NCBI GenBank assembly: GCA_028287235.1
Contig: JAQBQB010000019.1
Coordinates: forward strand, 1 to 64,000
Source of the DNA: Gemmatimonadota bacterium
GTDB taxonomy: Bacteria > Gemmatimonadota > Gemmatimonadetes > Gemmatimonadales > Gemmatimonadaceae
Direction: 5' to 3'
DNA: 64,000 bases
Position 1 is the stretch's first letter, and the number at the start of each line of letters is the position of its first letter. Both the position numbers and the translations under genes were made by a program. The notes under the pieces were generated by a model. The model was not told where the DNA came from. It saw nothing but the letters and a program-made list of their open reading frames with translations, and did not search any database. Positions 16,616 through 36,699 of this stretch are shown here, piece by piece.

Positions 16616-16689
16616 GGGCGAATAGCTCAGTTGGTTAGAGCACCTGCCTTACACGCAGGGTGTCGGGGGTTCGAGTCCCTCTTCGCCCA
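16616..16689 (+). tRNA. tRNA-Val (anticodon TAC)
   Basis: The cloverleaf folds fully: acceptor arms GGGCGAA and TTCGCCC with discriminator A, D-arm GCTC/GAGC, anticodon stem CCTGC/GCAGG around loop CTTACAC giving anticodon TAC, and a T-arm with TTCGAGT. The 3' CCA is not encoded, so it must be added post-transcriptionally. It probably shares the promoter at 16386. Confidence 0.95.
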
Positions 16690-16781
16690 TGTACGAAGAG
16701 CCACGTAGGAAAAGATGTCGAGACCGCGAACCCGAGTGCACGACACGGGGTATGAGAGATCAACGTTTGGGAGGTAGAACC

Positions 16782-18518
16782 GTGAAGTCAACGCAACGCC
16801 ATGTGGCAGCCGCCGCGGGCTTCCTCGCCGTAACCCTGGCGAGCACTCCGCTGCTTGCGCAAATCGCCGCGCAGCGCGGTGGTCCCCCGGGTGCGGACAC
16901 CCCGTACATCCTCGTCTCCACGTTCGCGAGCCCCGACCGGACCCTCGGGGTCACGACGGCGGACGAAGTGCGCAAGCGGATTCAGGACCAGCATGCAGCC
17001 AAGGAGCTGTACGTGGTCCCGAAGACGAGCATCAACAGCACGCTCGAAGCGTCGGGCTATCGCCCCGATTCGGCGCTGAACGCGTCGGATCTCATGGAGC
17101 TCTCCAAGCAGCTCCATGGCGAGTACGTGCTCGACGGCAAGGTTTCCAAGACGGCCACCGGCGTTCGGGCCGAGACGCGTCTCCTGATGCGCACCGGCAC
17201 GCAGACGGTTGCGCAACCGCTTCCGCCGGTCGACGGCAAGGACGCGGGCGACGTGGCAAAGGGCGTCGAGAAGGGAATCGCCGACGCGCTCAAGGGCATG
17301 AAGCCGTACAAGGATTGCACCAACGACCTGCGCGCCGCCAAGTACGACCAGGCCGCGAAGGACGCCAAGCTCGGCATCGTCGCGTATTCCAATTCGTCGC
17401 TCAACCGCCTGTGCCTGTTGTCGGCGTACAGCAACGCCAAGATGTCGCCCGACTCGATCATCACCGCGGCGAACGCCGTGCTGGCGATCGACAAGACGAG
17501 CATGATCTCGCTGGCCAACCTCGCCGCCGCCTATGCGGAAAAGGGCGACACGGCCAAGGCGATCGAAACGAACCTCGCGATCTACCGCAACGATCCGTCG
17601 AACTCGGCGGTCGCGCAGTCGATCGTGCAGCAGCTCGCGCAGTCGGGCGCACCGGACAAAGCGCTGCCGATCATCGACTCGCTGCTCAAGGACAACCCGG
17701 CGGATCCGGGAATGCTGCGCACGAAGTGGCTGTTGCAGCTTCGCGCGAAGCAGTACAAGCAGGCGTTGGCCACGGGTGAAGAGCTGATCAAGGCCGACAC
17801 GGCCCAGGCGACGCTCGACTACTACAACCGTCAGATCGGCGCCGCGCAGTCGGACAGCAACACGGCGGCCGTCCAGCAGCTCGCGGTACGTGCCGGCCAG
17901 AAGTTCCCGACCGACGCCAGCTTCCCGTTGCTGCTCGCGCAGAACTACCGGAAGGCAGGCCAGCTGCAGCAGGCGCTCGCGTCGGCTCGTCGGGCCACCG
18001 AGATCGATCCGAAGAACTCCAACGCGTGGCTGTTCGCCATCGTGACGGCGAGCGACCTGAAGATGGCCGACAGCGCAAGTGCGTGGGCGCAAAAGGCGAT
18101 CGCGGCGGGTGTCGACAAGACGACGCTCGGCTCGGCGCTGCTTGGTCCCGCGAGCGATGCGGTAAAGAAGGCGCAGGCGTCCAAGACGCGCGAGGATTGG
18201 TTGGCCGCGCTGCAGGCCGCTGAGGCAGTCGACGCAATTGCACCGACGCCGAACAGCAAGTTCTTCATCGGCGTGGCGTCGTTCTCGGCGGCGCAGGACG
18301 TCATGAACGAAGTCCAGACGCTCGCGAAGAGCAAGAAGAAAGAAGATCAGGCGCAAGCCTGCAGCAACGCGAAGCAAGCCGAGGATCTGTTGGCCAAGAC
18401 GTCGGTGGCGATGCCCGCCGGCGGAAAGGTGGATGCGGCGATCGCCGGCCAGATTCTCGGCGCCGTCACGCAGTACACCGACTACATCGCTCAGGTCAAG
18501 AAGGCCTTCTGCAGGTAA
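16782..18518 (+). CDS. Exported TPR protein
   Basis: 578 aa from GTG 16782, chosen because GGGAGG lies 7 bp upstream (16769-16774); an ATG at 16752 is less well placed. A signal peptide (VAAAAGFLAVTLASTPLLAQ) directs export. Residues about 30-170 form a domain reminiscent of periplasmic nucleotide-free TolB/FlgO-type N-domains (YILVSTFASPD; LSKQLHGEYVLDGKVSK), followed by TPR repeats to the end, with cysteines near residues 182, 206, 532 and the C-terminus that could pair in the periplasm. The gene ends at a strong terminator. No specific function can be assigned. Confidence 0.75.
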   Translation: MKSTQRHVAAAAGFLAVTLASTPLLAQIAAQRGGPPGADTPYILVSTFASPDRTLGVTTADEVRKRIQDQHAAKELYVVPKTSINSTLEASGYRPDSALNASDLMELSKQLHGEYVLDGKVSKTATGVRAETRLLMRTGTQTVAQPLPPVDGKDAGDVAKGVEKGIADALKGMKPYKDCTNDLRAAKYDQAAKDAKLGIVAYSNSSLNRLCLLSAYSNAKMSPDSIITAANAVLAIDKTSMISLANLAAAYAEKGDTAKAIETNLAIYRNDPSNSAVAQSIVQQLAQSGAPDKALPIIDSLLKDNPADPGMLRTKWLLQLRAKQYKQALATGEELIKADTAQATLDYYNRQIGAAQSDSNTAAVQQLAVRAGQKFPTDASFPLLLAQNYRKAGQLQQALASARRATEIDPKNSNAWLFAIVTASDLKMADSASAWAQKAIAAGVDKTTLGSALLGPASDAVKKAQASKTREDWLAALQAAEAVDAIAPTPNSKFFIGVASFSAAQDVMNEVQTLAKSKKKEDQAQACSNAKQAEDLLAKTSVAMPAGGKVDAAIAGQILGAVTQYTDYIAQVKKAFCR

Positions 18519-18542
18519 TCGCGGGGCAGCTTTCTCGCTGAC

Positions 18543-18580
18543 GAAACGCCCGTCGCATGCGCGACGGGCGTTTCGCTTTT
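18543..18580 (+). terminator. Rho-independent terminator
   Basis: A perfect 14-bp stem (GAAACGCCCGTCGC and its complement) with a 4-base loop ATGC, arms at 18543-18556 and 18561-18574, followed by GCTTTT. It ends the exported TPR gene. The minus-strand lipid kinase stops directly at its edge, so the hairpin may serve both converging transcripts, although the T-run favours the plus strand. Confidence 0.88.
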
Positions 18581-19479
18581 CAGGCCTGTTCTTCTTCGCC
18601 GGGCAAACGCGCCACGTGCACCCAGAGATCGCGCGGCCGCGCGCGGTAGGTGAGCCGCTGCGCGTTCGACGTCTCACCGTCGACGTTCACGGCCATGGGC
18701 TCGCGCGCCTCGATCGTCACCGATCGTACTTGCGCGTAGTGCACGCCTTCCTCGCCGACATGCTCGCCGCGCTTCACCTTGAACACCGTGCGCGCGAAGT
18801 CCTTGCGCGACATTCCCTCGACGACGCACAAGTCGAGCAGGCCGTCGGTGGCCGACGCCATTGGCGTGACCATGGTGCCGCCGCCGGTGGATCGGGTAAG
18901 GCCCACGGCGAACATGAGGAACTCGCCCTCGTATTCGAAACCGTCGGCGGTGAACTTCGCGTACGTGGACTGGAGGTCGGCGAACTTGCGCATGCCGCTG
19001 ATGGCGTACGCCAGCGAGCCGAGGGATTCCTTCGCTTCGGCCGGCGTGTCGGCGGTGGCTTCGGCGCCCACGCCACCGATCGACACGTTCAGAAACCGGC
19101 GCCCGTTCAGCGACGCGGTGTCGAGTCGCCTGGGCTTGCGTTGGAGGATAACATCCATGGCATGATCGGCGTCCGCCGGTATGCCCACCTGTCGCGCAAA
19201 ATCGTTCGCCGTTCCGAGGGGAATGATCCCGAGCGGCACGTCATAGCCATCCAGACCATTCACGACTTCATTGAGCGTTCCGTCGCCGCCGGCGGCGGCA
19301 ACCACGTCCACCCCGCGCCGGGCGAACTCCGTCGCCAGCGCGGCGGCTTCGCCCGCTTCGAACGTGGCTCTCGCCTCGACGAGATGGCCCTTGTCGCGCA
19401 CCCAGCTCACGAGGTGCCGCACGTCGGAGCGGTCGGCGCGCGCGCCGTGGACGATCAGCGCAATGTGCTTGGAAGGCAT
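18580..19479 (-). CDS. YegS/DgkB-family lipid kinase
   Basis: 299 aa. It has the diacylglycerol/sphingosine kinase catalytic motif AAAGGDGTLNEVVNGL, the substrate segment GIIPLGTANDFARQVG and the C-terminal domain with DGLLDLCVVEG and NVDGE. Such soluble enzymes phosphorylate lipids such as diacylglycerol or phosphatidylglycerol with ATP. The start is the ATG read leftward from 19479 (MPSKHIALIVHG); an upstream in-frame extension of 29 codons would run through the start of rsmH and is not supported. Its start codon overlaps that of rsmH on the other strand by 2 bp. Confidence 0.85.
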   Translation of the reverse strand: MPSKHIALIVHGARADRSDVRHLVSWVRDKGHLVEARATFEAGEAAALATEFARRGVDVVAAAGGDGTLNEVVNGLDGYDVPLGIIPLGTANDFARQVGIPADADHAMDVILQRKPRRLDTASLNGRRFLNVSIGGVGAEATADTPAEAKESLGSLAYAISGMRKFADLQSTYAKFTADGFEYEGEFLMFAVGLTRSTGGGTMVTPMASATDGLLDLCVVEGMSRKDFARTVFKVKRGEHVGEEGVHYAQVRSVTIEAREPMAVNVDGETSNAQRLTYRARPRDLWVHVARLPGEEEQA

Positions 19480-20413
19480 GTCGCTAAATAACGCATACCA
19501 CGCGCCTGTGCTCGCCAGCGAGGTCACCGAGCTGCTGCGGGGGTGCGAACGCGTGCTCGACGGCACCCTCGGCGGCGGCGGCCATAGCGCGGCGCTGTTG
19601 CACGCCGGCGTGCGAACGGTGATCGGCGTGGATCGCGATCCCGACGCCTTGGTCGCCGCGTCCGCGCGGCTGCACGACTTTACCGAGGCAGGCCGCTTCT
19701 CGGCGGTGGAATCGAACTACGCGGCGATCGACGAGCTTCCGTCGCTCGAGGGGATGTCGTTCGACGGCATCCTTCTCGACCTCGGAATCTCGTCGCACCA
19801 GATCGACGACGAGCAGCGTGGATTTACATTCCGTCTCGGCGCGCGGCTCGACATGCGCATGGGCGGCGAGAACGACGTCGCGGCCGACGCCGCCGGAATT
19901 CTCAACCACGAAGACGAAGCGACCCTGACGAACATCTTCAAGGACTACGGTGACGAGCCCAAGGCGGGCCGGCTCGCGCGCGAGATCGTACGCCGCCGCG
20001 GGAACCGACCGTTCGAGACGAGCGACGATCTCGTCGGCGCGATCCGCGCGGTGCTCGGCGCGCGCAGCGGGTCGGGGGACTTCGCGCGGCTCTTTCAGGC
20101 AGTGCGCATCGCCGTCAACGACGAGCTGTCCGGCCTCGTTCGCGCGCTGCCGGCGCTTCGCGACCGACTGACGCCGGGCGGCACGCTCGTCGTCATCGCC
20201 TACCACTCGGGAGAGGACCGCATCGTCAAGAACGCCTTCCGCGACTGGAGCTCGGCGTGCGTCTGTCCGCCCAAGCACCCGTTCTGCACCTGCCGCGGCG
20301 TGGCGCTCGGTACGACGGTCACGCGCCGCGCGCGCATCGCCTCGGAAGACGAAGTCATTCAGAACCCGCGCGCTCGCAGCGCCAGGCTCCGCGCATGGCG
20401 AAGCGCGCCGTGA
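19478..20413 (+). CDS. rsmH: 16S rRNA (cytosine1402-N4)-methyltransferase RsmH (MraW)
   Basis: 311 aa. Conserved N-terminus YHAPVLASEVTELL, SAM-binding DGTLGGGGHSAALL, DLGISSHQIDD, FRLGARLDMRM and the characteristic AYHSGEDRIVKNAF, plus the late cysteine cluster CVCPPKHPFC. RsmH methylates C1402 in the ribosomal decoding site. It opens the division/cell-wall cluster as is usual, but no mraZ precedes it. The ATG at 19478 shares two bases with the divergent lipid-kinase start; an ATG 5 codons upstream (19463) is the alternative. The 3' end overlaps ftsL by 19 bp. Confidence 0.95.
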   Translation: MSLNNAYHAPVLASEVTELLRGCERVLDGTLGGGGHSAALLHAGVRTVIGVDRDPDALVAASARLHDFTEAGRFSAVESNYAAIDELPSLEGMSFDGILLDLGISSHQIDDEQRGFTFRLGARLDMRMGGENDVAADAAGILNHEDEATLTNIFKDYGDEPKAGRLAREIVRRRGNRPFETSDDLVGAIRAVLGARSGSGDFARLFQAVRIAVNDELSGLVRALPALRDRLTPGGTLVVIAYHSGEDRIVKNAFRDWSSACVCPPKHPFCTCRGVALGTTVTRRARIASEDEVIQNPRARSARLRAWRSAP

Positions 20414-20727
20414 GCTCGGGCCGCCGCGGGCGGTCGCTCATCGCCGTGCTGCTTGTTGGTTTCGTCCTGGTGACCACGGGCGTCATTGCTCGCAGAGTGC
20501 GAGGTCTCCAACAGCAGCGGGAGATTCGCGATTTGCAGCGGACGCGCGATGCCCTCGACGCGGAGCGTATGCGGCTCGACGGCGCGATTCGCGACGCGTC
20601 GAGCCGCAACCGGCTGCAGCCGATCGCCGAGCAACGTTTGAACATGCACATTCCCAAGCCGGAAGAGCAGGTGTTTCTGAAACGCAGTCCGGTCCCCGCA
20701 GCCCGGCCGCCGCATGATTCGCTCTAG
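20395..20727 (+). CDS. ftsL: FtsL-like division protein
   Basis: 110 aa: short basic cytoplasmic tail, one membrane helix (SLIAVLLVGFVLVTTGVIA), then a coiled coil rich in Arg/Leu (LQQQREIRDLQRTRDALDAE) and a tail ending at PPHDSL. The topology, length and position between rsmH and ftsI are those of FtsL, which links FtsQ/FtsB to FtsI-FtsW. Sequence conservation in this family is low, so the assignment rests on topology and synteny. It overlaps rsmH by 19 bp and ftsI by 14 bp. Confidence 0.82.
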   Translation: MAKRAVSSGRRGRSLIAVLLVGFVLVTTGVIARRVRGLQQQREIRDLQRTRDALDAERMRLDGAIRDASSRNRLQPIAEQRLNMHIPKPEEQVFLKRSPVPAARPPHDSL

Positions 20728-22702
20728 ACGGATCAAGCTCGCGCACACGGTGCTCGCGCTCTTCGCCATCGCCATCCTCGGGAAGGCAGCGAGCGTGCAG
20801 CTCGTGCATGGCAGCAAGTGGCTCGCGCAGGCGGAGCGGCAACAGACCACGGCGCGCAACATTCCGGCGCCACGCGGCGAGATTCTCGACGCCACGCGAC
20901 GGGTGCTCGCGCAGAGCCGCGAGATGGTGCGGCTGGAGATTGCGCCGCGCGAAGTCACCGAGCCCGCGAAGCTGCGGGCGGCGCTGGCCAAGCTCGACAT
21001 CGACAAGGCGCTGATCGCCCGCGCGCTCGATACGTCGGCGAAGTATCTAACGATCCCCGGGCGCTTTCTCGCGGTCGATGCCGCGGATGCAACGTCGCTG
21101 CGCGGCGTCCACTCGTACGCCACGGTCATGCGCGCACTGGCCGCGTCGCAGGGCGCGGAAGGGATCGTGGGCCACGTGGACGCCGACAACAAAGCCGTGG
21201 ACGGACTCGAGCTCTCGCTCGACTCCATCCTTCGCGGCATCGCCGGCACCACCACGGTATACAAGGACTCGAAAGGCCAGGTGCGCGAGTCGCCGATCGC
21301 GCCGGGCACCGCGCCGACGAAGGGAAATAGTGTCGTTCTGACAATAAATGCCGACCTACAGGAGATCGCGGAAAAGGCGCTCGCCGACGCCGTGGTCCGC
21401 ATGGGTGCGGAAGGCGGCGACATCGTCATTCTCGATCCGCACGACGGCGAGGTGCTCGCCATGGCGAGCCGGCGTCTCGACCGCCAGACGTCCGCCGCGG
21501 TGCTCACCGAGCCGTTCGAGCCGGGATCCACGATGAAGCCCTTTCTCGCCGCGGGCCTGCTCCAGCGCGGCCTCGTGCGCGACGAAGACTCCGTCGACAC
21601 CGGCAACGGCGTGCTGCAGGTGAAGGGACGGTCGCAGCCCATCCACGACGATCACCTCATCGGGCGTGCGCCGTTGGCCAAGGTGCTCCAATGGTCGAGC
21701 AACATCGGCATCGTGAAGTTCTCCGAGCGATTGTCGCCGCAGCAGGAATTCGAAACGCTGCGTGATTTCGGGTTCGGTACTCCGACCGGGCTGCCGTACC
21801 CCACGGAATCGTCGGGCAGCCTGCGTCCGCCCAAGACGTGGTCGCTGGCATCGGCGAACTCGATGGCGATGGGCTACGAGATCGCCGTCACCCCGTTGCA
21901 GCTCGCCGTGGCATACGCGCCGTTCGCGAACGGCGGAGAGCTGGTGGAGCCGGCGCTCGTGAAGGAGATCATCGGGCCCGATGGTGCCGTGCGGTATCGG
22001 CATTCCAGGCGCGTGGTGCGCCGGGTGATGTCGAAAGCGGTGGCTGAAAAACTCCGCCACATGCTGCTCGACGTCGTCGATGAGGGGACAGCGCTCCAAG
22101 CCGCGCTCGACAACTATCTGCTGGCCGGCAAGACCGGTACGCCCCGCGTGTCGGTGCGCGGCCGCTACGTCGAGGGCCGGTACAACCCGAACTTCGTCAG
22201 CCTCTTTCCCGGCGACGCTCCGCAATACGTCATGATCGTCAAGCTCACCGCACCGACGAGCTCGATCTACGCCGCGTCGACGGCGGCGCCGGTGACGAAG
22301 GCGATCCTCCAAGCCGCGATCGCCGCGCGGGACGCCGCCCTCGATCGCTCCAAGCTCGCGTCGAGCGTGGTGCCGATGCGGCGCGACACCACGAAGCGCC
22401 TGGCCTCTCGCCTTACCAGGCCCGCTGTTCCGACCCACGCCGCCGGCGACGATGCGCCGGACCAGGGAGGCAGCATTCCCTTCGTCGTGAACCTTCCGGC
22501 GCCGCCCGAAGAGCCGATTCCGCGTCTCATCAAGCCGATTCCCGAAGTCCGGGGGCTCAACCTCCGCGACGCGGTGCGTTCGTTGCACAGTGCTGGCTTT
22601 CGCGTTCAGCTCGCCCGGGGAGGAGGCGCTCCCAGCACCGAACCCGCCGCCGGCGCGCTGATACCCACTGGAGCGTTGGTTCGATTGCACTTCGATTACT
22701 AA
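20714..22702 (+). CDS. ftsI: Division transpeptidase FtsI (PBP3-type) with PASTA domain
   Basis: 662 aa. N-terminal membrane helix (TVLALFAIAILGKAASVQL), class-B PBP dimerisation domain (PRGEILDATRRVLAQS), and a transpeptidase with S272-T-M-K275, S328-S-N330 and K473-T-G-T476. The last 60 residues are a PASTA domain (IPEVRGLNLRDAVRSLHSAG). FtsI cross-links septal peptidoglycan in the periplasm together with FtsW. It overlaps ftsL by 14 bp and abuts murE without a gap. A PASTA domain on the division PBP is common in Gram-positives and some other phyla and absent from E. coli PBP3. Confidence 0.95.
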   Translation: MIRSRRIKLAHTVLALFAIAILGKAASVQLVHGSKWLAQAERQQTTARNIPAPRGEILDATRRVLAQSREMVRLEIAPREVTEPAKLRAALAKLDIDKALIARALDTSAKYLTIPGRFLAVDAADATSLRGVHSYATVMRALAASQGAEGIVGHVDADNKAVDGLELSLDSILRGIAGTTTVYKDSKGQVRESPIAPGTAPTKGNSVVLTINADLQEIAEKALADAVVRMGAEGGDIVILDPHDGEVLAMASRRLDRQTSAAVLTEPFEPGSTMKPFLAAGLLQRGLVRDEDSVDTGNGVLQVKGRSQPIHDDHLIGRAPLAKVLQWSSNIGIVKFSERLSPQQEFETLRDFGFGTPTGLPYPTESSGSLRPPKTWSLASANSMAMGYEIAVTPLQLAVAYAPFANGGELVEPALVKEIIGPDGAVRYRHSRRVVRRVMSKAVAEKLRHMLLDVVDEGTALQAALDNYLLAGKTGTPRVSVRGRYVEGRYNPNFVSLFPGDAPQYVMIVKLTAPTSSIYAASTAAPVTKAILQAAIAARDAALDRSKLASSVVPMRRDTTKRLASRLTRPAVPTHAAGDDAPDQGGSIPFVVNLPAPPEEPIPRLIKPIPEVRGLNLRDAVRSLHSAGFRVQLARGGGAPSTEPAAGALIPTGALVRLHFDY

Positions 22703-24178
22703 ATGCACGCTGACATAGAAACGATCGCCAAGGCGCTCGATGAGGCAGGCCTCCTCGTCGAGCGCCGCGGAGCGTTACCGCCGGTGCTGTCCGGGATCAC
22801 CGACGATAGCCGCGCAGTGAGCCCCGGCGGACTGTTCGTCGCCGTGCGCGGTACGGAGCGCGATGGGCACGACTACCTCGATGCGGCCGCGACGGCCGGA
22901 GCCTCGGCCGCCATCGTTCAGGACCCGGCCCGAACGACGCTTCCGTCGCTCGTCGTCAAGGACGGACGCCGCGCGGCCGCCGTCGCCGCGGCGGCGGCGT
23001 TCGGCTTCCCGGGGCGCGACCTGCAGCTGGTCGGCGTCACGGGCACGAACGGCAAGACGACCACGGTGAACATGCTCCGCCATCTCCTCGACGAGAGCGC
23101 GGTGCGGAGCGCATCGATCGGCACGCTCGGCGTGTTGGTCGGAAGCGAAGGCACGCCGCTCGACGGCGGCGGTGGTTTGACGACCCCCGGACCGATCGAG
23201 CTGCAGCGACTCTTTCGCGCTCTGCTCGACGCGGGCATCGGGCGCGTGGCGATGGAGGTCTCGTCGCACTCGCTCGACCAGGGCCGCGTGGAAGGCGTGT
23301 TCTTCGACGTCGTGACGTTCACCAACTTCACGCGCGACCATCTCGACTACCACGGCACGATGGAGAGCTACTTCGCCGCCAAGGCGAAGCTGCTCGACCA
23401 TCTGGTGCCCCACGGCACGGTCGTCTACAACGTGGACGACAAAGCGTGGACCGCTCTCAAAACCGACCGCCGGCGCGTCGGCTTCAGCGAGCGCGTGGCA
23501 TCGGCCGAGGTGCATGCGGAGAATGTGCGCTACAGCTCGCGCGGCAGCGACTGGACGGTGCGACTCAATCAGGAACGCGCACCGGTACACCTTCCATTGA
23601 TCGGCGACTTCAACGTCATCAACGCCCTCGGTGCCGCGGCCACGGCCTACGCGCTGGGGCTGCCCTCGACGCGGGTCGCCGAACGGCTGTCGTCGATGCC
23701 GCAGATCCCTGGCCGCCTCGAGGTGCTGCGCGACGCGCCGACGGTGCTGCGCGACTATGCACACACGCCCGACGCGTTGGCGCGCGCGCTCGACGCCGTG
23801 CGTCCCTTTACGCCCGACCGGCTGATCGTCGTGTTCGGATGCGGCGGAGATCGCGACCGCGGCAAGCGTCCCGAGATGGGGGCGATCGCCGAAGACAAGG
23901 CCGACATCGCCATCGTGACGAGCGACAATCCGCGCACCGAGGATCCCGAAGCGATCCTCGACGACATCGAGAAGGGAATGAAGAAGGACAACCACGAGCG
24001 CATCGAAGATCGGAGGGCGGCGATCGCGCGCGCCTTGAAGCTCGCCACGCCTCGCGATGTGATCGTGCTCGCAGGAAAAGGCCACGAGACGTACCAGGTT
24101 CGTGGAACCACCAAGCTGCCCTTCGACGAGAAGATCATCGTGAACGAACTGTCGCACGACCTCGGTCCCGACCGATGA
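22703..24178 (+). CDS. murE: UDP-MurNAc-tripeptide synthetase MurE, meso-DAP type
   Basis: 491 aa. ATP-binding GTNGKTTT, the MurE-type THF-like AMEVSSHSLDQGRV and DHLDYHGT segments, DYAHTPDAL and the late DNPR motif (SDNPRTEDP) that goes with meso-diaminopimelate rather than lysine, then AGKGHETYQ. It adds the third amino acid to UDP-MurNAc-dipeptide in the cytoplasm. The ATG begins right after the ftsI TAA; the stop overlaps murF by 4 bp. Confidence 0.96.
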   Translation: MHADIETIAKALDEAGLLVERRGALPPVLSGITDDSRAVSPGGLFVAVRGTERDGHDYLDAAATAGASAAIVQDPARTTLPSLVVKDGRRAAAVAAAAAFGFPGRDLQLVGVTGTNGKTTTVNMLRHLLDESAVRSASIGTLGVLVGSEGTPLDGGGGLTTPGPIELQRLFRALLDAGIGRVAMEVSSHSLDQGRVEGVFFDVVTFTNFTRDHLDYHGTMESYFAAKAKLLDHLVPHGTVVYNVDDKAWTALKTDRRRVGFSERVASAEVHAENVRYSSRGSDWTVRLNQERAPVHLPLIGDFNVINALGAAATAYALGLPSTRVAERLSSMPQIPGRLEVLRDAPTVLRDYAHTPDALARALDAVRPFTPDRLIVVFGCGGDRDRGKRPEMGAIAEDKADIAIVTSDNPRTEDPEAILDDIEKGMKKDNHERIEDRRAAIARALKLATPRDVIVLAGKGHETYQVRGTTKLPFDEKIIVNELSHDLGPDR

Positions 24179-25581
24179 GCACGACGCCGCCAGCCGTCGC
24201 GCCGTCGGATTTCTGGACCATGAACCGCGCCGCCGACGCGCTCGGGCCGTTGTCGCCGGTGAACGTGCCGCGCGGGTCGAGCGTGTTTGGCCGCGTGTGG
24301 ACCGATACACGCACGATTCAGCCCGGCGACCTGTTCGTGGCGCTCGTCGGCGAGAAATTCGACGCCCACGATTTCCTGAAGGACGCGGTCGCGCAGGGCG
24401 CGAGTGGCGTCGTCGTCTCGAAGGTCGAGACGACGCGCGATCTCGGTGTGCCCGTCTATCAGGTGAGCGATACGCTCGTGGCGCTCGGCGCACTCGGGAC
24501 CTTTCGGCGGCGCGCCTGGAACAAGCCCGTCGTGGGAGTCGTGGGTACGAACGGAAAGACGAGCACCAAGGAGCTCATCAAGGCGGCGCTGGGCAGCGTC
24601 CTCGAAGTGCATGCGACCACGGGCAATCTGAACAATCTCATCGGCGTTCCGCTCACGCTGCTCGCGATTCCCGACGCGGCCGACGTGGCGGTGGTGGAGA
24701 TGGGGACGAACCAGCCCGGCGAGGTGCCGCGGCTGCGCGCCATCGTCGAGCCGAACGTGACCGTGGTCACCTCGGTGGCCGAGGAACATCTCGAGGGACT
24801 TGGCGACCTCGCCGGAGTGCTGAAGGAGGAGCTGTCCGCGGCCGAAGGCGTTCCGGTCGCGATCGTCCCGTCGTCGCAACCGGAAGTCGTGGACGCCGCG
24901 CGCATCCGCGCCAAGCGTACCGTAGCGGCGGGCCTCGCCGACGGTGACCTGAAGCCGACGGCGTGGAGTGTCGATCCCGACGGCCGCGGACGGATGACGG
25001 TCGACGGCGTGGACATCACGCTGCCACTCCGCGGTGTTCACAATCTCCGTAATGCGATGCTCGCGCTGGCCGTGGCTCGCGAGCTCGGTGTGTCGATCGC
25101 GGACGCGGGACGGGGCATTGGCGCGATGCCGGTGCCGCCCATGCGCGTGAACGTCGAGCAGCACGGCTCGGCGACGTTGATCAACGACGCCTACAACTCC
25201 AATCCCGGCTCGGCGCGGGCGGCGCTCGAGCTGTTGCAGCACGCCGGGGCGGGGCGCCAGCGCGTCGCGGTGCTCGGCACGATGCTGGAGCTCGGGCCGC
25301 AGACGCCGCGCCTCCACGACGAGGTGGCGGGCGACGCGCTCGCCGGCGGCGTGGAGGTCGTGGCGGCGATCGGCGAGTTCGCCTCGGCGCTGGGGCGTAT
25401 CGCGCCAGGGGATTCGCGCGTCATTGTTGCCGACGACGTCGACGCGCTCTGGGCGAAGCTGTCGTCGCGTCTCGCACCGGACGCCGTTATTCTCCTCAAA
25501 GGCTCGCGCGGCATGCGTCTCGAGCGCCTCGTGGCTCCGATCTCCGAATGGGCGAAGCAGACCCTAGATCCTCAACCCTAG
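24175..25581 (+). CDS. murF: UDP-MurNAc-pentapeptide synthetase MurF
   Basis: 468 aa. GVVGTNGKTSTKEL P-loop, NLNNLIGVPLTLL, VVEMGTNQPGE and INDAYNSNPGSARAAL are the standard MurF signatures. It adds D-Ala-D-Ala to the UDP-MurNAc-tripeptide. The ATG at 24175 overlaps the murE stop as ATGA; the frame is open further upstream but only inside murE. The last codons (TLDPQP) and the stop lie in a small ACCCTAGA direct repeat. No ddl gene is present in this cluster to supply D-Ala-D-Ala. Confidence 0.96.
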   Translation: MSTTPPAVAPSDFWTMNRAADALGPLSPVNVPRGSSVFGRVWTDTRTIQPGDLFVALVGEKFDAHDFLKDAVAQGASGVVVSKVETTRDLGVPVYQVSDTLVALGALGTFRRRAWNKPVVGVVGTNGKTSTKELIKAALGSVLEVHATTGNLNNLIGVPLTLLAIPDAADVAVVEMGTNQPGEVPRLRAIVEPNVTVVTSVAEEHLEGLGDLAGVLKEELSAAEGVPVAIVPSSQPEVVDAARIRAKRTVAAGLADGDLKPTAWSVDPDGRGRMTVDGVDITLPLRGVHNLRNAMLALAVARELGVSIADAGRGIGAMPVPPMRVNVEQHGSATLINDAYNSNPGSARAALELLQHAGAGRQRVAVLGTMLELGPQTPRLHDEVAGDALAGGVEVVAAIGEFASALGRIAPGDSRVIVADDVDALWAKLSSRLAPDAVILLKGSRGMRLERLVAPISEWAKQTLDPQP

Positions 25582-25594
25582 ACCCTGCTTCTCC

Positions 25595-26737
25595 GTGCTC
25601 TATCATTTCCTCTACCCGCTCGCCAAACAATTCCGGGTTCTGAACGTGCTGTCGTACATCTCGCTGCGCGCGGTTGGCGCGGCGGTGACGGCGTTGCTGC
25701 TGTCGTTCATCTTCGGCCCCATCATCTTACGGGCGCTGAAGAACCAATCCGTGAATCAGGTCGTGCGCGAAGGCACGCCGTTGTCGCACGCCGGCAAGGG
25801 CACCACGCCGACGATGGGCGGCTTGATCATCCTCAACAGCGCGCTGGTGTCGGTGCTGTTGTGGGGACGATTCAGCCTCAGCCACCCCTATCTGTTCATC
25901 GCCATCCTCGTCACCCTGTGGATGGGCGCGATCGGCTTTCTTGACGATTTTCTCAAGATGCAGCAGAAGAAGCGCGGGGAGAAAAACCGCGGACTCGTCG
26001 AGCGCTACAAGCTCGTGGGGCAGCTCACGGCCGGCTTGGCGCTCGGGTTCTACCTCTGGCACGTGCCCCTCTCGCCGAATCTGCCCGGGGCGTCGACGAC
26101 GCTGCCGTTCTTCAAGTACATCATCGTGATCTTCACGGTGCCGTGGCTGTACGTGGCGTTCACGACGTTCATCCTCGTGGGCACCAGCAACGCCGTGAAC
26201 ATTACCGACGGTCTCGACGGACTGGCGGCCGGGTTGTCGGCGATCGCATTCGGCACGTTCGCGATCTTTTCGTACATCATCGGCCGCGTGGACTACAGCC
26301 GATATCTCCAGCTCTTCTATCTCCAGGACTCCGGCGAGCTGACGGTGTTCTGCCTCGCGATCGTCGGCGCGCTGATCGGTTTTCTCTGGTATAACGCCCA
26401 CCCGGCGCAGATTTTCATGGGCGACACCGGGTCGCTCGCGCTCGGCGGCGCGCTGGGCGCGGTGGCGATCCTGCTCAAGTCGGAGTTTGTCCTCGCCTTC
26501 GTCGGCGCGGTGTTCGTCGCCGAGATGATGTCGGTGATCCTGCAGCGCTTCGTTTTCAAATACCGCAAGAAGCGACACGGGCTGGAGTACGCCCAGGCGC
26601 ACCGGGTGTTCAAACGAGCGCCGCTGCACCATCATTTCGAGGAGACCGGTTGGCAGGAGACCCAGGTGGTCGTCCGGTTTTGGATTCTTGGAATTCTCTG
26701 CGCGTTCTTTGCCTTGAGCACCCTCAAGCTTCGTTAG
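25595..26737 (+). CDS. mraY: Phospho-MurNAc-pentapeptide transferase MraY
   Basis: 380 aa polytopic membrane enzyme. Signatures: GTPTMGG-like TTPTMGGLIIL, FLDDFLKMQQKK, NAVNITDGLDGLA, FMGDTGSLALGG and the HHHFE motif near the C-terminus. MraY makes lipid I on undecaprenyl phosphate at the inner membrane. The start is GTG 25595, 13 bp after murF, with no clear Shine-Dalgarno. The length is about 20 residues longer than E. coli MraY, mostly between the first helices. Confidence 0.96.
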   Translation: MLYHFLYPLAKQFRVLNVLSYISLRAVGAAVTALLLSFIFGPIILRALKNQSVNQVVREGTPLSHAGKGTTPTMGGLIILNSALVSVLLWGRFSLSHPYLFIAILVTLWMGAIGFLDDFLKMQQKKRGEKNRGLVERYKLVGQLTAGLALGFYLWHVPLSPNLPGASTTLPFFKYIIVIFTVPWLYVAFTTFILVGTSNAVNITDGLDGLAAGLSAIAFGTFAIFSYIIGRVDYSRYLQLFYLQDSGELTVFCLAIVGALIGFLWYNAHPAQIFMGDTGSLALGGALGAVAILLKSEFVLAFVGAVFVAEMMSVILQRFVFKYRKKRHGLEYAQAHRVFKRAPLHHHFEETGWQETQVVVRFWILGILCAFFALSTLKLR

Positions 26738-26746
26738 AATAGAGTC

Positions 26747-28138
26747 ATGGCACGTAATTCAGATCCGGCGATGCGGTCGGAATGGCTGCGCGGCGAGATT
26801 GCCGTCGTGGGCCTGGCGAGAAGTGGCCGAGCGGCCGCGCAGTTGCTGAGCCGGGCCGGCTCGGATGTGTATGCGTCCGATGCGGGCAGGTCGCCCGAGC
26901 TCGAGGCCACGGCCGTCGAGCTCCACCACGACCAAGTCGACGTCCAGCTGGGGGGACACGACCTGGAGCGCATCGCGCGGGCATCGCTCGTCGTCGCGAG
27001 TCCCGGCGTTCCACCGAATGCGCCGCCGTTCGTCGCCGCGCGAAACGCGGGCGTCGAGATCGTGAGCGAGGTCGAGATTGGGCTGCGTTTTCTGCCGCGC
27101 CTGAGCTACGTCGCGATCACTGGCACGAACGGAAAGACGACGACCACGGCGCTCGTCAGCCATCTGCTCGAGGCGATCGGGCGGCGCACGGCGGCGGCGG
27201 GCAACATCGGCACGCCGCTCACCGAGCTGGCGATGCAGCAGTCGCCCCCCGACTGGGTGGCGCTCGAAGTCTCGTCGTTCCAGCTGCACGATACGCCGAG
27301 CATCAAGCCGAACGTGGGCGTGCTGACGAACCTGTCCGCGAACCACCTCGACCGGTACGACAGCGTCGACGAGTACTTCGCCGACAAGGCGCAGCTCTTT
27401 CGGAATGCCACGGCCGAGTCGCACTGGGTGACCAACGCCGACGACGCCGACGTGCAGTCGATGACGGAGCACGTGGCCGGAATGCAGTGCCGCTTTTCCG
27501 TCCGCGGCAAGAGCGACGCCTACTTCGATCGTGCGGCCGCGCAGCTCGTGGTGCTCGGCCACCCGCTGATTCACCGCGATCAGCTGCCGCTCCTCGGCGA
27601 CCACAACGTTGCCAACGCCCTTGCCGCCTGCCTGGCGGTGATGATCGCCGACCGCGAGCATCGGACTCCTCGCGCGCTCGAGCAGATGGGGAGCGCGATG
27701 AAAACGTTCAATGCCCTCGAGCATCGTATCGAGACGGTGGGCGAGTTCGACGGTGTGAGCTGGATCAACGACTCCAAGTCGACCAACGTGGCGTCGACGC
27801 TGGTGGCGTTGCGCGGCATGTCCAGGCCGACGGTACTGCTGTTGGGTGGCAAGCACAAAGGCGAGCCCTACACTGATCTAATCCCCGAGCTCCGGCGCAC
27901 GGGCCGATCGGTCGTCGCCTATGGCGAGGCGGCGCCGCTGATCGAGAAAGATCTCGGCGGCGCGGTGCCGTTGACGCGCCTCGGATCGTCGTTCGAGGAA
28001 GTCGTCGCCACGGCGCGGCGGCTCGCGCAGCGGGGCGACGTCGTACTGTTGTCGCCCGCCTGCTCGAGCTACGACATGTTCGACAATTACGAGCAGCGGG
28101 GCAGCGTGTTCAAGCAGATGGCGCCGGGAGCCCGCTGA
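26747..28138 (+). CDS. murD: UDP-MurNAc-L-alanine:D-glutamate ligase MurD
   Basis: 463 aa. Rossmann N-domain (GEIAVVGLARSGRAAAQLL), GTNGKTTTT P-loop, ALEVSSFQL, NLSANHLDRY and WINDSKSTN, with the C-terminal LLLGGKHKG segment. MurD adds D-glutamate to UDP-MurNAc-L-Ala. The ATG is 9 bp after mraY. The usual order mraY-murD-ftsW-murG-murC is preserved. Confidence 0.96.
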   Translation: MARNSDPAMRSEWLRGEIAVVGLARSGRAAAQLLSRAGSDVYASDAGRSPELEATAVELHHDQVDVQLGGHDLERIARASLVVASPGVPPNAPPFVAARNAGVEIVSEVEIGLRFLPRLSYVAITGTNGKTTTTALVSHLLEAIGRRTAAAGNIGTPLTELAMQQSPPDWVALEVSSFQLHDTPSIKPNVGVLTNLSANHLDRYDSVDEYFADKAQLFRNATAESHWVTNADDADVQSMTEHVAGMQCRFSVRGKSDAYFDRAAAQLVVLGHPLIHRDQLPLLGDHNVANALAACLAVMIADREHRTPRALEQMGSAMKTFNALEHRIETVGEFDGVSWINDSKSTNVASTLVALRGMSRPTVLLLGGKHKGEPYTDLIPELRRTGRSVVAYGEAAPLIEKDLGGAVPLTRLGSSFEEVVATARRLAQRGDVVLLSPACSSYDMFDNYEQRGSVFKQMAPGAR

Positions 28139-28152
28139 GCATCTCGAATACG

Positions 28153-29379
28153 ATGAGCAGGAACCCTTCGAAGCAGTCGCGAACGCAATCGCGGGCGCAG
28201 TCGCGGGCCGCCGCGATCACGGCCGACGTGCGCGAGCGCTGGCGCATGGGCCCGGAAGCGCGCGGCCTGATGCTCGTGAGTGCCGTGCTCATCGCATTCG
28301 GGCTCGCGGTGCTGTACAGCGCGAGCGCCTTCGTGGCGATGAACGAGCGCGGCAACAGCGCGTACTTTCTGACGAAGCAGCTCACCGGCGTCGCGGCGGG
28401 GATGGTCGCGTTCGCGGTCGCCGCGAAGTTCGACGCGGAAAAGCTGCGCGAATGGGCCTGGCCGATCATGTGGTTCACGATCGTGACGATGGCTGCCGTG
28501 CTCTTTCTTCCGGAAAGGATTGCCCCCACGATCCACGGCTCGCGCCGGTTTCTCTTCGGCGCCTCGTTCCAGCCGTCGGAGTTCGGCAAGCTCGCGGTGG
28601 TCGTCTGGGTTGCGATGCTCGTCGTCAAGAAGGGCGACAGCCTGCGCCGGCTGACGAAGGGGCTCGTGCCCTTTCTCGTCATCATCGGCCTGCTCGACGT
28701 GCTCGCGGCGCTCGAGCCCGACCTGTCGGTCGCCATGCTTTACACTTTGCTCATGGCGCTGCTGCTCTTCGTCGGCGGGGCGCGGATGAGCCATTTCGTC
28801 GCGCTGGCCGCCATGTGCCTGCCAATGGCGTTGACCAAGATCGAGAAGTGGCGGTACGCGGTCGCGCGCATCACGGCGTTTCTGCACCCCGGCAACGCGC
28901 CGGCAACCGTGAGCTTCCAGCTTCAGCAATCGTTGATCGCCGTGGGCTCGGGGGAGCTCACGGGGCGGGGCTTCGGCAAGGGCATGCAGCAGGCGTCGTT
29001 CGTGCCTTTTCCGTACAGCGACTTCGTGGCGAGCGTGGTCGGGGAGGAATGGGGCTTCATCGGGATCGCGGGCATCACGATTGCCTTTGCTCTCTACGCC
29101 CTGCTCGGCTTCCGGATCGCGCGGCAGGCGCGGAGCCCGTTCCTCCAACTCGTGGCGGTCGGACTGACCTTCACCACCGTGCTCACGGCCTTCTTGCACA
29201 TCGGCGTCGTGATCGGCCTGTTGCCGACCACGGGGCTGACGCTCCCGTTCGTGTCGTTCGGGCGCTCCAACCTCGTGCTCACGATGCTCTTTACCGGAAT
29301 TCTCGTGAACATCGGGAGCAACAAGGAGCGCGTCATCGGAAGTGGTGCGACTGATCCCTTGGCGCTTGCCACGGCATAG
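28153..29379 (+). CDS. ftsW: SEDS peptidoglycan polymerase FtsW
   Basis: 408 aa with about ten membrane helices. A basic, Gln/Arg-rich cytoplasmic tail (SKQSRTQSRAQSRAAA) precedes the first helix. SEDS landmarks: FQPSEFGKLAVVVW, LEPDLSVAM, the FVPFPYSDFVASVVGEEWG loop and the GLLPTTGLTLPFVSFG C-terminal signature. FtsW polymerises septal glycan strands with FtsI. ATG 14 bp after murD. RodA is the related alternative, but location within the cluster favours FtsW. Confidence 0.94.
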   Translation: MSRNPSKQSRTQSRAQSRAAAITADVRERWRMGPEARGLMLVSAVLIAFGLAVLYSASAFVAMNERGNSAYFLTKQLTGVAAGMVAFAVAAKFDAEKLREWAWPIMWFTIVTMAAVLFLPERIAPTIHGSRRFLFGASFQPSEFGKLAVVVWVAMLVVKKGDSLRRLTKGLVPFLVIIGLLDVLAALEPDLSVAMLYTLLMALLLFVGGARMSHFVALAAMCLPMALTKIEKWRYAVARITAFLHPGNAPATVSFQLQQSLIAVGSGELTGRGFGKGMQQASFVPFPYSDFVASVVGEEWGFIGIAGITIAFALYALLGFRIARQARSPFLQLVAVGLTFTTVLTAFLHIGVVIGLLPTTGLTLPFVSFGRSNLVLTMLFTGILVNIGSNKERVIGSGATDPLALATA

Positions 29380-29403
29380 CGCCGGCGCGGAGCGGGCGGC
29401 AGC

Positions 29404-30504
29404 GTGACGCGCATCGTCTTCGCGGGCGGCGGCACGGGCGGCCACCTGTATCCGGGCATCGCGATCGCGCGCGCGCTCGTGCGCCAACGTTCGTCGATCG
29501 AGCCGTTCTTCGTCGGCGCGCTCCGCGGCATCGAGCGCGAGGTGCTGCCGAAGACCGAATTTCCGCACCTGCTGCTCGACCTGCATCCGCTTTACCGGCC
29601 GGCGGTGTGGCACAACTGGAAGACCGTTGCCGGAGCTGCCGGCGCGTGGCGGCGGATTGGCGCCATGGTCGCCGAGGACCGGCCGGCGGTCGTCGTGGGA
29701 ACGGGAGGCTACGCCGCGGGGATCATGCTGGCGTACAGCGTCGTACACCGGCTACCGATCGTCCAGCAGGCGGGCGACAGCGTTCCGGGTCTCACCGCGC
29801 GCGCCTTCAGCCGCTGGTCGCGTGAGATATACCTGAATTTTCCCGAGGCGGCGCGGGTGCTCCAGGCGCATCACGAGGGCTCGCTCGTCGATACGGGCGC
29901 GCCGATCGAGCCGCCGCCTGCTCCGCTGCCGGACAAGCACCTCGCCCGGGAGCGCTGGGGATTTCCGCGATCGGGCGGGCACGTGCTCTTGATCTACGGC
30001 GGAAGTCAGGGGTCGCTGGCGATCAATCGCGCGGTGGGTGAGTGGATCGACCGCGGCCTGCCGGACAATCTGTACGTGATCTGGGGCACGGGCCGCGCGA
30101 CGTACGAGCAGTTCAAGCACTTCGAGAGTCCGCAGGTGCGCGTGCGCGACTACCTGGCGCCGATCGGCGACGCCTACGCGGCGACGGACGTCGCGTTGGC
30201 GCGCGCCGGCGCGATGACGACCGCCGAGCTGTTCGCGTGGGGCATTCCCGGCGTGCTCATTCCACTGCCGACCGCCGCCGCCGATCACCAGGCGACGAAC
30301 GCGGTGACGCTCGAGCGCGCCGGCGCGGCAATTCACATTCCGCAGACGCAGCTCACCGTGGAACGGCTCGATGGAACGCTGGGCCGGCTCATGCACGATC
30401 CGGCCGAGCTCGCGCGCCTCGCCGCGGGCGCGCGGGCACGGGCACGGCCGCAGGCAGCGGTGGAGATCGCGAAGCGGATTGTAGCGATCGTGGACGGCGT
30501 CTAA
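29404..30504 (+). CDS. murG: Lipid II synthase MurG
   Basis: 366 aa. GT-B glycosyltransferase with the N-terminal GGGTGGHLYPGIAIA loop, LLIYGGSQGSLAINRAV opening the second domain and the UDP-GlcNAc site RAGAMTTAELFAWG then the Gln-containing DHQATNA. It transfers GlcNAc to lipid I on the inner face of the membrane. The start is GTG 29404, 24 bp after ftsW; the preceding GGAGCGGGCGGCAGC is purine-rich and may serve as ribosome-binding site. Confidence 0.95.
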   Translation: MTRIVFAGGGTGGHLYPGIAIARALVRQRSSIEPFFVGALRGIEREVLPKTEFPHLLLDLHPLYRPAVWHNWKTVAGAAGAWRRIGAMVAEDRPAVVVGTGGYAAGIMLAYSVVHRLPIVQQAGDSVPGLTARAFSRWSREIYLNFPEAARVLQAHHEGSLVDTGAPIEPPPAPLPDKHLARERWGFPRSGGHVLLIYGGSQGSLAINRAVGEWIDRGLPDNLYVIWGTGRATYEQFKHFESPQVRVRDYLAPIGDAYAATDVALARAGAMTTAELFAWGIPGVLIPLPTAAADHQATNAVTLERAGAAIHIPQTQLTVERLDGTLGRLMHDPAELARLAAGARARARPQAAVEIAKRIVAIVDGV

Positions 30505-30538
30505 GCGTTGTTCCACTCGCCGACGTAATTTCATTCAC

Positions 30539-31909
30539 ATGCCGCTTCTCGACTCCACCGACGCGCGTCCAATTCATTTTGTGGGAATTGCCGGCGCCGG
30601 CATGAGCGCATTGGCGCAGCTGTTTCTGCGCCGCGGCGTGCCGATCACCGGCTGCGACGCGAACCCCGGTGCCGCCGACGACCTGCGACGGTTGGGTGTC
30701 ATCGTCGGACCGCACGATCCCGCGCACGTCGACGGCGCGCGTGCGCTCGTCGTGACGTCGGCAATGGCGAAGGACCATCCGGAGCTCGTGCGGGCGCGCG
30801 AGCTGGGCGTGCCGGTGGTGCGCCGCGCCGAGGCGCTCGGCGAAGTCACCGCCAATCGAGAGCTCGTCGGCATCGCGGGCACGCACGGCAAGACGACGAC
30901 GACGGTGATGACGGCCACCGCGCTCGCCGCGGCGGGGGGCGACCCCACGGTGCTCGTGGGCGGACGCGTCGCCACATGGGAAGGGAATCTCCTCGCCGGC
31001 GGCGATCGACTCTACGTCGTAGAGGCCGACGAGTACGATCGCTCCTTTCTCGCGCTCACGCCCACTGTCGCCGTGGTGAATAACATCGAGGCCGACCACC
31101 TCGACATCTACACCGACCTGGCCGACATCAAGGACGCGTTCGCGCAGTTCGTGCGCGGCGCGCGCACCATCGTGCTCTGCGCCGACGACGCCGGTGCCAA
31201 TTCGCTCAAGACGCCAACGGGCCGGGAGGTCATCCGCTTCGGCATCGACTCCGGCGATGCGCGCGTCGTGGCGAAGGGCTTGACGCTCACGCCAAACGGC
31301 TCGTCGTTTCGCGTGCTGTTCGACGACGAGGACCTCGGCGCGGTCGAGCTGCGAATTCCCGGTCGTCACAATGTGCTCAACGCGCTCGCCGCGCTATCGG
31401 GCGGACTCGCCCTCGGCGCGACGGTGCCCGACATGGCGCGTGGGCTCGCGACGTACGCGGGCGTCGAGCGCCGCTTTCAACGCCTGGGCGAAGCGCGCGG
31501 CGTGGCGGTCGTCGACGACTATGCGCACAATCCGGGCAAGGTGGCCGCGGTGGTCGCCACGGCGCGCCTCGCCTATCCGGGACGCCGGCTCGTCGTCGCC
31601 TTTCAGCCGCATCTCTACACCCGCACGCGCGATTTCGCCAAGGAGTTCGGCGCATCGCTGGCCGGCGCCGACACGGTGTTTCTCACGGAGATCTACCCGG
31701 CGCGCGAGCAGCCAATCGAAGGCGTGACGTCGCAGCTCGTCGCCGACGCATTGACGTCGTCCGGCGGGTCCGTGGCGTGGCGCGGTGAGCGCCGCGATCT
31801 CGCGGACGCCCTGGCCTCCTCGGTGCGGGATGGCGACATCGTGCTGGTGGTGGGCGCGGGCGACATCACGAAGACGGGGCCCGAGTTGTTGGAACGGCTC
31901 GCGCAATGA
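30539..31909 (+). CDS. murC: UDP-MurNAc:L-alanine ligase MurC
   Basis: 456 aa. FVGIAGAGMSALAQL dinucleotide-like loop, AGTHGKTTTTVM P-loop, EADEYDRSFL, NIEADHLDIY and DDYAHNPGKV are all MurC signatures. It attaches the first amino acid of the stem peptide. ATG 30539, 34 bp after murG; the stop overlaps ftsQ by 4 bp. murB, which normally lies between murC and ftsQ in many genomes, is not here. Confidence 0.96.
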   Translation: MPLLDSTDARPIHFVGIAGAGMSALAQLFLRRGVPITGCDANPGAADDLRRLGVIVGPHDPAHVDGARALVVTSAMAKDHPELVRARELGVPVVRRAEALGEVTANRELVGIAGTHGKTTTTVMTATALAAAGGDPTVLVGGRVATWEGNLLAGGDRLYVVEADEYDRSFLALTPTVAVVNNIEADHLDIYTDLADIKDAFAQFVRGARTIVLCADDAGANSLKTPTGREVIRFGIDSGDARVVAKGLTLTPNGSSFRVLFDDEDLGAVELRIPGRHNVLNALAALSGGLALGATVPDMARGLATYAGVERRFQRLGEARGVAVVDDYAHNPGKVAAVVATARLAYPGRRLVVAFQPHLYTRTRDFAKEFGASLAGADTVFLTEIYPAREQPIEGVTSQLVADALTSSGGSVAWRGERRDLADALASSVRDGDIVLVVGAGDITKTGPELLERLAQ

Positions 31910-32589
31910 GAATGAAGCGCGTCAAGCTGGCCCTCGTCGGCATCGCCGCGCTCCTCTTCGTCGCCTCGCCCCTGTGGGCGCCGCTCTTCCTACGGCGGAT
32001 CGCGTTCTTCCACGTCCGCCGCATCGAGATTCTCGGAACTCGTTATCTTGCCCCGAGTGACATTCTCGCTCGGTTGCACGTCGATACCACGGCGTCGGTC
32101 TGGGATCCCATGGCGCCGCTCGAGCTGCGTGTGGCGGGCCATCCGGAGATCGAACGAGCCGTGGTTCGCCGAAAGATGCCGGGTACCCTCGTCATCGAGG
32201 TCACCGAGCGGATCCCGGTGGCGCTGGTGCAGGCGAACGGAGGCTTTCGCGTGTATGATGCACGTGGAATCCCACTGCCGCTCGACCCGGCGCGGGTTCC
32301 GATCGACGCGCCGGTGCTGATGCAGCGCGATACCGCGCTGCTTCGGCTGCTCGGATCGATGCGGGACCGGATGCCGGCGATGTACGCCAGAGTGATTGCC
32401 GTGAGCCGCGTGGCGAACGGCGAGTTGATGTTCCAGTTCCCGCTGCAACCCGTGCGGGCGTTGCAGGATGTGACGTTGGACCGCCTTGCCGAAATCGAGC
32501 CCGTCGAAGCCGATCTGCTGCACAAACAGCTTCGCGTGGCCGAGATCGATCTTCGCTACCGTGACCAGGTAATCGCCAGACTGCAATGA
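31906..32589 (+). CDS. ftsQ: FtsQ/DivIB-type division protein
   Basis: 227 aa, shorter than E. coli FtsQ. One N-terminal membrane helix (VKLALVGIAALLFVASPLWA), then a POTRA domain (HVRRIEILGTRYLAPSDIL ... HPEIERAVVRRKMPGTLVIE) and a beta domain. FtsQ recruits FtsL/FtsB and later division proteins. It is coupled on both sides by ATGA overlaps with murC and ftsA. The assignment rests on POTRA pattern and synteny. Confidence 0.88.
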   Translation: MRMKRVKLALVGIAALLFVASPLWAPLFLRRIAFFHVRRIEILGTRYLAPSDILARLHVDTTASVWDPMAPLELRVAGHPEIERAVVRRKMPGTLVIEVTERIPVALVQANGGFRVYDARGIPLPLDPARVPIDAPVLMQRDTALLRLLGSMRDRMPAMYARVIAVSRVANGELMFQFPLQPVRALQDVTLDRLAEIEPVEADLLHKQLRVAEIDLRYRDQVIARLQ

Positions 32590-33851
32590 CTCCGCCGCCA
32601 CAACGCCTCGTCGCTGGACTCGACATCGGCTCCGCGAAGACCACCGCCATCATTGCCGAAGTGGTCGGCGACCTCCCGAAGCACCCGACCATCAAGGTCC
32701 TGGGTGTCGGCCAGGCGCGCACGACGGGTATGCGCCGCGGCGTCGTCTCCGACATCGAGGAGACCACCCGCTCGATCAAGAAGGCGATGCAGGACGCCGA
32801 GCGCATGGCGGGAGCCGAGGTGCAGGAAGTGTACGCCGGCATCGCGGGCGAGCACGTGCAGGCGATGACGAGCAAGGGCATCGTCGCGGTGAGCCACGAC
32901 GAGATCAACAAGTCGGACGTGGACCGCGCGAACGAAGTGGCGCGCGCGCAGTCGATTCCGCAGGACCGCGAGCTGCTGCACGCCATTCCGCAGGAGTACA
33001 CGGTCGACAAGGACACGGGCATCCGCGATCCGATCGGCATGAGCGGCACGCGTCTCGAGACGGAGATGTATCTCGTGACGATCGGCAGCTCGCCGGCCAT
33101 CAACCTGCGCAAGTCGGTGGAGCGCGCGGGCTACAAGGTGCGCGAGCTGGTGCTCGAGCCGCTCGCCAGCGCGCTCGCCGTGCTCACCGAAGACGAGAAG
33201 GAGCTCGGCGTCGCGCTGGTCGAGATGGGCGCCGGCACGACGGACCTCGCCGTCTTTCACGAAGGAAAGATTCGCCACCTCGGCACCGTGAACTTCGGCG
33301 GTAACAACGTGACGAGCGACATCGTCCACGGGCTGGGCGTGACGCAGGTGGACTCCGAGCGCCTCAAGGAGCGTTACGGCTGCGCGCACGAGGGGCTCGT
33401 CGACCCATCCGACGTCATCCAGCTGCCGAGCACCGTGGCCCAGGGCGACCGGCAGATTCCTCGCGAGCTGTTGGCGCACATCATCCACCAGCGCATGGAC
33501 GAGATCTTCGACCTCGTGCAGCGCGACATCTCCTCGGCGGGCTTCGCCGGAAAGCTGAGCGCCGGCGTGGTGCTCACGGGCGGCGCCGCGGCCATGCAAG
33601 GGGTGGCCGAGCTGGCGAGCGACGTCTTTGGAACCGGAGTGCGCGTCGGGATTCCGTCGGAAAATATTTCCGGTCTCGTGGATTCGGTCGAGGCGCCCCG
33701 GTTTGCGACGGTCGCGGGCCTGGCGCAGTACGGCGCCAACCGCATCGCGCTGGGCGGCGTGACGTCGAGCGCTCGCCGGATGAAGATCGGCGGCGGCGGA
33801 ATGGACAAGATCGTGGCGCAGGTGAAGTTCTGGCTCCAGGATTTCTTTTGA
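32586..33851 (+). CDS. ftsA: Actin-like division protein FtsA
   Basis: 421 aa. Actin-fold phosphate loops GLDIGSAKTTAIIAEV and VEMGAGTTDLAVFHEGK, the 1C-domain region with PQEYTVD, GGNNVTSDIVHGLGV and GVVLTGGAAAMQG, and a C-terminal amphipathic helix (KIVAQVKFWLQDFF) that anchors FtsZ filaments to the membrane. It overlaps ftsQ by 4 bp. Unlike the rest of the cluster, ftsA is followed by a 298-bp gap before ftsZ. Confidence 0.95.
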   Translation: MTPPPQRLVAGLDIGSAKTTAIIAEVVGDLPKHPTIKVLGVGQARTTGMRRGVVSDIEETTRSIKKAMQDAERMAGAEVQEVYAGIAGEHVQAMTSKGIVAVSHDEINKSDVDRANEVARAQSIPQDRELLHAIPQEYTVDKDTGIRDPIGMSGTRLETEMYLVTIGSSPAINLRKSVERAGYKVRELVLEPLASALAVLTEDEKELGVALVEMGAGTTDLAVFHEGKIRHLGTVNFGGNNVTSDIVHGLGVTQVDSERLKERYGCAHEGLVDPSDVIQLPSTVAQGDRQIPRELLAHIIHQRMDEIFDLVQRDISSAGFAGKLSAGVVLTGGAAAMQGVAELASDVFGTGVRVGIPSENISGLVDSVEAPRFATVAGLAQYGANRIALGGVTSSARRMKIGGGGMDKIVAQVKFWLQDFF

Positions 33852-36605: not shown

Positions 36606-36609
36606 CCGC

Positions 36610-36666: not shown

Positions 36667-36699
36667 CGGGTTTCCTGACGACAGATTAGCTTACGCGCC

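Follow-up and report, generated by a model that had tools for sequence, protein, structure and literature searches.

Overlaps between the 5' ends of genes on opposite strands are rare, as there has to be space for promoters and ribosome binding sites. In a comparison of 58 species, divergent overlaps formed the rarest class with 331 of 14,958 overlaps (12737 + 1890 + 331), a scarcity that is attributed there to the control elements that genes require upstream (PMC2174442). In one survey, the long divergent overlaps considered were all judged to be mis-annotations (PMC2478687). Bidirectional promoters have been reported as established in bacteria (Warman et al., PMC12825309), and leaderless bacterial genes are described as carrying the motif TANNNT ~12 nt before their start (PMC3160421). 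For the dcw cluster of Rhodobacter sphaeroides, the published account gives a leader of 268 nt that contains a terminator and gives rise to an sRNA (PMC5089854). Among the papers listed by searches on dcw, rsmH or mraZ in Gemmatimonadota and on divergent overlapping start codons, none described a fitting case, judged by titles and abstract openings.

Here, we analysed a 64,000-nt stretch of a Gemmatimonadota genome (the window; contig JAQBQB010000019.1, positions 1 to 64,000), in which rsmH and a lipid kinase gene overlap at their starts (Table 1). This is a rare divergent overlap of a known kind, and the kinase-rsmH pair is a well-conserved new example of it. As in other prokaryotic divergent (head-to-head, 5'-5') overlaps, the two genes lie on opposite strands, their 5' ends overlap and both starts are supported by conservation. 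Unlike those, the pair heads an essential operon and can be compared to relatives that carry a spacer and a promoter-like site. The locus would resemble the bidirectional promoters described by Warman et al. (PMC12825309) in that two divergent transcripts would arise from one short stretch of DNA. It differs in that no symmetric -10 element was found and in that the elements would sit inside two coding sequences. Compared to R. sphaeroides (PMC5089854), the first promoter would likewise lie unusually far upstream, here as a candidate only, but while the leader there contains a terminator and gives rise to an sRNA, any long leader here would run antisense to the kinase gene, and the cluster lacks mraZ.

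Table 1. Features at the start of the division cluster in the window.
Feature	Position	Strand	Remarks
TPR-repeat protein gene	16689..18518	+	co-directional with rsmH, convergent with kinase gene
15-bp GC-rich hairpin, then CTTTTC	18542..18575	+	between TPR gene and kinase gene; likely terminator
YegS/Rv2252/BmrU-family lipid kinase gene	18580..19479	-	DAGK_cat and YegS_C domains; profile match
GGATAACATCCATGGCATGATC element	19146..19167	+	inside kinase gene, ~320 nt before rsmH
Shared start CATG	19477..19480	both	rsmH ATG + 19478-19480; kinase ATG - 19479-19477
rsmH, 16S rRNA m4C1402 methyltransferase	19478..20413	+	first dcw gene; profile match
rsmH codons 4-12	19487..19513		synonymous sites conserved in genus; 8-34 nt upstream of kinase ATG
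ftsL-like gene	20398..20727	+	follows rsmH
Continuation of cluster	to 35343	+	PBP transpeptidase, Mur ligases, MraY-like, FtsW, MurG-like, FtsA, FtsZ

The identity of both genes is supported by profile scores. The RsmH product exceeds the TIGR00006 equivalog cut-off (247.9 vs 154.3 bits) and the kinase exceeds that of TIGR00147, the YegS/Rv2252/BmrU subfamily (214.8 vs 118.65 bits). The kinase falls below the stricter YegS equivalog TIGR03702 (218.9 bits vs a cut-off of 387.45) and is thus not YegS proper. Further along the cluster, ftsZ follows ftsA after a gap of ~300 nt. For 58 of 59 genomes, a Pfam search gave no match to mraZ, the usual first gene of the dcw cluster.

The sequence GGAAGGCATGTCGC (19471-19484) contains the CATG from which rsmH is read rightward (MSLNNAYHAPVL) and the kinase gene leftward (MPSKHIALIVHG). 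Both genes start with ATG and overlap by 2 nt (19478-19479). The first-pass annotation had proposed that this CATG serves as a start codon on both strands, with the kinase starting from 19479 and rsmH from 19478, and that the division cluster has no intergenic region upstream. Both proposals were borne out, and in the genus members with the kinase the overlap is forced. We enumerated every in-frame start for both genes in 23 divergent kinase-rsmH pairs. In each of the five genus members that carry the kinase, even the most downstream start of either gene leaves an overlap of 2 nt in this CATG; a downstream start that would open a gap was found in none of them, and in four of the five no alternative in-frame start is available to the kinase. 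Upstream in-frame starts of rsmH (TTG, ATG) are present, and using them would only make the overlap longer. Downstream, rsmH could next start from a GTG at codon 11, whose use would delete the YHAP block that all 23 pair loci encode (one of them as YHSP). Furthermore, the start sharing persists at a protein identity of 79-83% for the kinase and 70-74% for RsmH and thus does not reflect chance in a single genome. It could be argued that the overlap is an illusion of annotation and that one of the genes truly starts further downstream, which would leave an ordinary gap for a promoter, as long divergent overlaps are reported to be mostly mis-called starts (PMC2478687). However, the overlap here is 2 nt and not long, both genes use ATG and no downstream start preserves the conserved N-termini. 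We consider this explanation very improbable and rejected mis-called starts on the basis of the enumeration across the 23 pairs.

The overlap also stands out within the genome. In a sample of 424 kb, which comprises the window and 18 of 19 further stretches (one of <3 kb was left out), we called 336 genes with 43 divergent pairs and a median gap of 265 nt. Only one of the 43 has a gap of 0 or less, and this is the kinase-rsmH pair. Genes were called with a simple codon-usage script that picked an upstream GTG (19527) for the kinase of the window, a call that we overruled from the relatives.

To compare relatives, we used 59 genomes, of which 58, including that of the window, have a match to rsmH, and gathered loci from the 57 relatives. 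Together with 80 loci from a contig search and the window itself, this resulted in 138 loci, or 122 distinct ones after dropping 16 repeats. Named records among these rsmH loci are almost all Gemmatimonadota, and three genus members match records titled Gemmatimonadaceae. A divergent kinase lies next to rsmH in 23 of the 122 distinct loci (some of the other 99 are cut short upstream); thus, the pairing is not required for the division cluster. The genus is sampled with six genomes: five carry the kinase (the window, L032, L033, L034 and L036), and the sixth (G004, locus L035) has no close kinase. In L044, which belongs to another genus, the overlap is likewise forced. A spacer of 29-155 nt between the starts is possible in 17 of the 23 pairs, all from Gemmatimonadaceae and their kin. 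Four of these gapped pairs (L126, L102, L054 and L104) could share a CATG if upstream starts were used for both genes; they were not counted as shared-start pairs because later starts exist. In a tree built from both proteins after concatenation (23 rows), the five genus members, all collapsed, form one clade with a support of 100/100, and L044 is placed elsewhere with a lower support of 87/87. The spacer may therefore have collapsed twice, once in the genus and once in L044.

From the overlap, its conservation and the fact that the genus lacks the promoter-like site of its gapped relatives, we propose that the divergent pair probably lost its spacer in the ancestor of the genus and that each gene would now be transcribed from a promoter embedded in the coding sequence of the other. 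The loss would have left both ATG codons in one CATG, and this pair would stay fixed since only an insertion could part both starts again. The kinase promoter would most likely lie within codons 1-13 of rsmH and result in a very short leader. The promoter of rsmH and the dcw cluster would lie somewhere in the kinase gene, either near its start or ~320 nt inside; in the latter case, the leader of rsmH would be antisense to the kinase mRNA. A conserved overlap at the head of an essential operon, together with relatives that bear a spacer and a promoter-like site, provides a clean natural series for the movement of promoters into coding sequence, a question that is small but directly testable.

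Several gapped relatives have a recognizable promoter-like site before rsmH. A sigma70-type site (TTGNNN-N16..18-TAGNNT) ends 39-40 nt before the conserved Tyr codon of RsmH in ten loci (L113, L046, L136, L128, L135, L060, L063, L162, L049 and L050), four of which are kinase pairs (L136, L128, L135 and L049). The kinase pairs L054 and L106 have such a site 46 nt before this codon. In the genus, no comparable site was found at the position used by the gapped relatives, with promoter scan scores of 3.9-6.1 compared to 9.5-16.8 in the ten loci. Many gapped pairs and kinase-less loci likewise have no site at that position, and the absence in the genus is thus weak evidence, so that the contrast between the genus and its gapped relatives is suggestive only. 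A scan of 18400-20800 for a consensus sigma70 promoter found none, and the search for an internal promoter later in the cluster (20400-38000) gave one weak match at 25579-25606, where shuffles expect 1.4.

The first-pass annotation had stated that the promoters must lie inside the opposite genes. This follows from the anatomy unless the cluster is read through from an upstream gene, which we deem unlikely. On the kinase side, the statement gains indirect support from codons 4-12 of rsmH, whose synonymous sites are conserved to an unusual degree. On the rsmH side it does not, since the searches in the genus revealed no consensus promoter within the kinase gene and its first codons are ordinary; here, we infer the location.

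The block in rsmH is a candidate for the kinase promoter or for another non-coding signal. Among the five genus members, the identity of synonymous codons is 0.91 in codons 5-13 and 0.52 in the remainder of the gene, the largest excess among 33 genes tested (21 with five genomes, 12 with three). The 9-codon window at codon 4 ranks 2 of 5415 among all windows of 23 genes with five genomes, the top 8-codon window has P(max) 0.010 in the genus, and none of 5000 random draws was as high as the first 15 codons. The strength depends on the measure, as a max-window test gave P 0.053 and a run test 0.094. Eight loci of the sister clade have no such conservation at that place of rsmH. The same block, with 27 of 27 bases identical, occurs in L054 and L106, although the starts can lie 91-94 nt apart there. 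Thus, it may serve rsmH itself, for instance in translation initiation. At the 5' end of the kinase gene, codon conservation in the genus is unremarkable (0.66 vs 0.58).

Within the kinase gene, the best lead is the 22-nt element GGATAACATCCATGGCATGATC, which covers about codons 105-111 and contains the inverted repeat GGAT-AAC-ATCC. Allowing up to 3 mismatches, the genome has a single copy of it. The five genus members and G018 share the identical sequence, and G014 has one base changed. A search of 40 genomes with up to 2 mismatches recovered the element in 7, always at the divergent kinase, and it is common to pairs with and without a spacer. The statistics are mixed. Codons 104-114 have an excess of A/T at third positions (P 0.001-0.006) and a run of unchanged codons (P 0.04). 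Against this, the max-window tests of synonymous identity do not single the element out (0.59; 0.14-0.20 in the genus, a 15-locus set and cross-pairs), and windows at codons 104-107 rank only 32-46 of 5415. These data hint at a promoter or control element for rsmH. A fuller version of embedded control, in which the kinase promoter would lie in rsmH codons 1-13, GGATAACATCC ~320 nt inside the kinase gene would be the rsmH promoter, and the leader, antisense to the 5' part of the kinase mRNA, would couple kinase and division expression inversely, appears rather unlikely to us.

Another possibility is that both mRNAs are leaderless or nearly so and arise from one compact bidirectional promoter centred on the CATG, with a symmetric -10 element. 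By eye, neither gene has a clear Shine-Dalgarno sequence at a usable distance in the window, and TA-rich hexamers (TATTTA, TAGAAC, TATCGA) lie ~12 nt before the kinase ATG. Bidirectional promoters whose start sites are separated by 10, 18 or 23 bp have been described (PMC12825309), which would fit such an arrangement. On the rsmH side, TATGCT was seen by eye 8 nt before the ATG in L032, L034 and L036, but it is absent in the window and in L033. Moreover, TANNNT at -15..-4 is not enriched before operon-leading genes of this genome (7 of 139 compared to 6.3 in shuffles, with crude start calls). We thus regard a single compact promoter as unlikely and retain promoters embedded in the two coding sequences as our preferred reading.

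A promoter near rsmH would not be needed if transcription of the TPR gene ran on into the cluster, passing through the kinase gene in antisense. The TPR gene, whose start is uncertain (the gene caller chose 16803), has the right orientation, and by eye it lies directly before rsmH in the kinase-less loci L035 and L059. However, it is followed by a strong hairpin with a short T-run (fold of 18525-18585: -35.9 kcal/mol, z -5.96). Similar hairpins were seen by eye before rsmH in L035, L037, L039, L046 and L060, and in L046 and L060 a promoter-like site of their own follows the hairpin. The hairpin behind the TPR gene thus makes read-through into the cluster unlikely.

Lastly, we made some additional observations. 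An Rfam match over the hairpin (18523-18578) reached 23.4 bits compared to a gathering threshold of 50; it is sub-threshold and was taken as chance. In the window genes at 5353 and 16382, the synonymous sites of codons 5-13 are likewise conserved to an unusual degree among genus members, and the gene at 5353 overlaps the end of its upstream neighbour. The sole mraZ match is on a 3.2-kb contig of G015, which may be a stray contig; the adjoining rsmH is 38% identical to that of the window. In the sixth genus member (L035), the TPR gene and a hairpin directly precede rsmH, which has an apparent TTG start, and the short gap before rsmH holds repeats of GGTGGACC (all by eye). A scan of six loci from the same family as the window showed tRNA-Val but no tRNA-Asp upstream of rsmH. 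In other families of the order (L065-L088), a tRNA-Asp(GTC) gene lies upstream of rsmH in all 24 loci, and tRNA-Val(TAC) lies ~2 kb before it in 23 of the 24, the remaining stretch being short.
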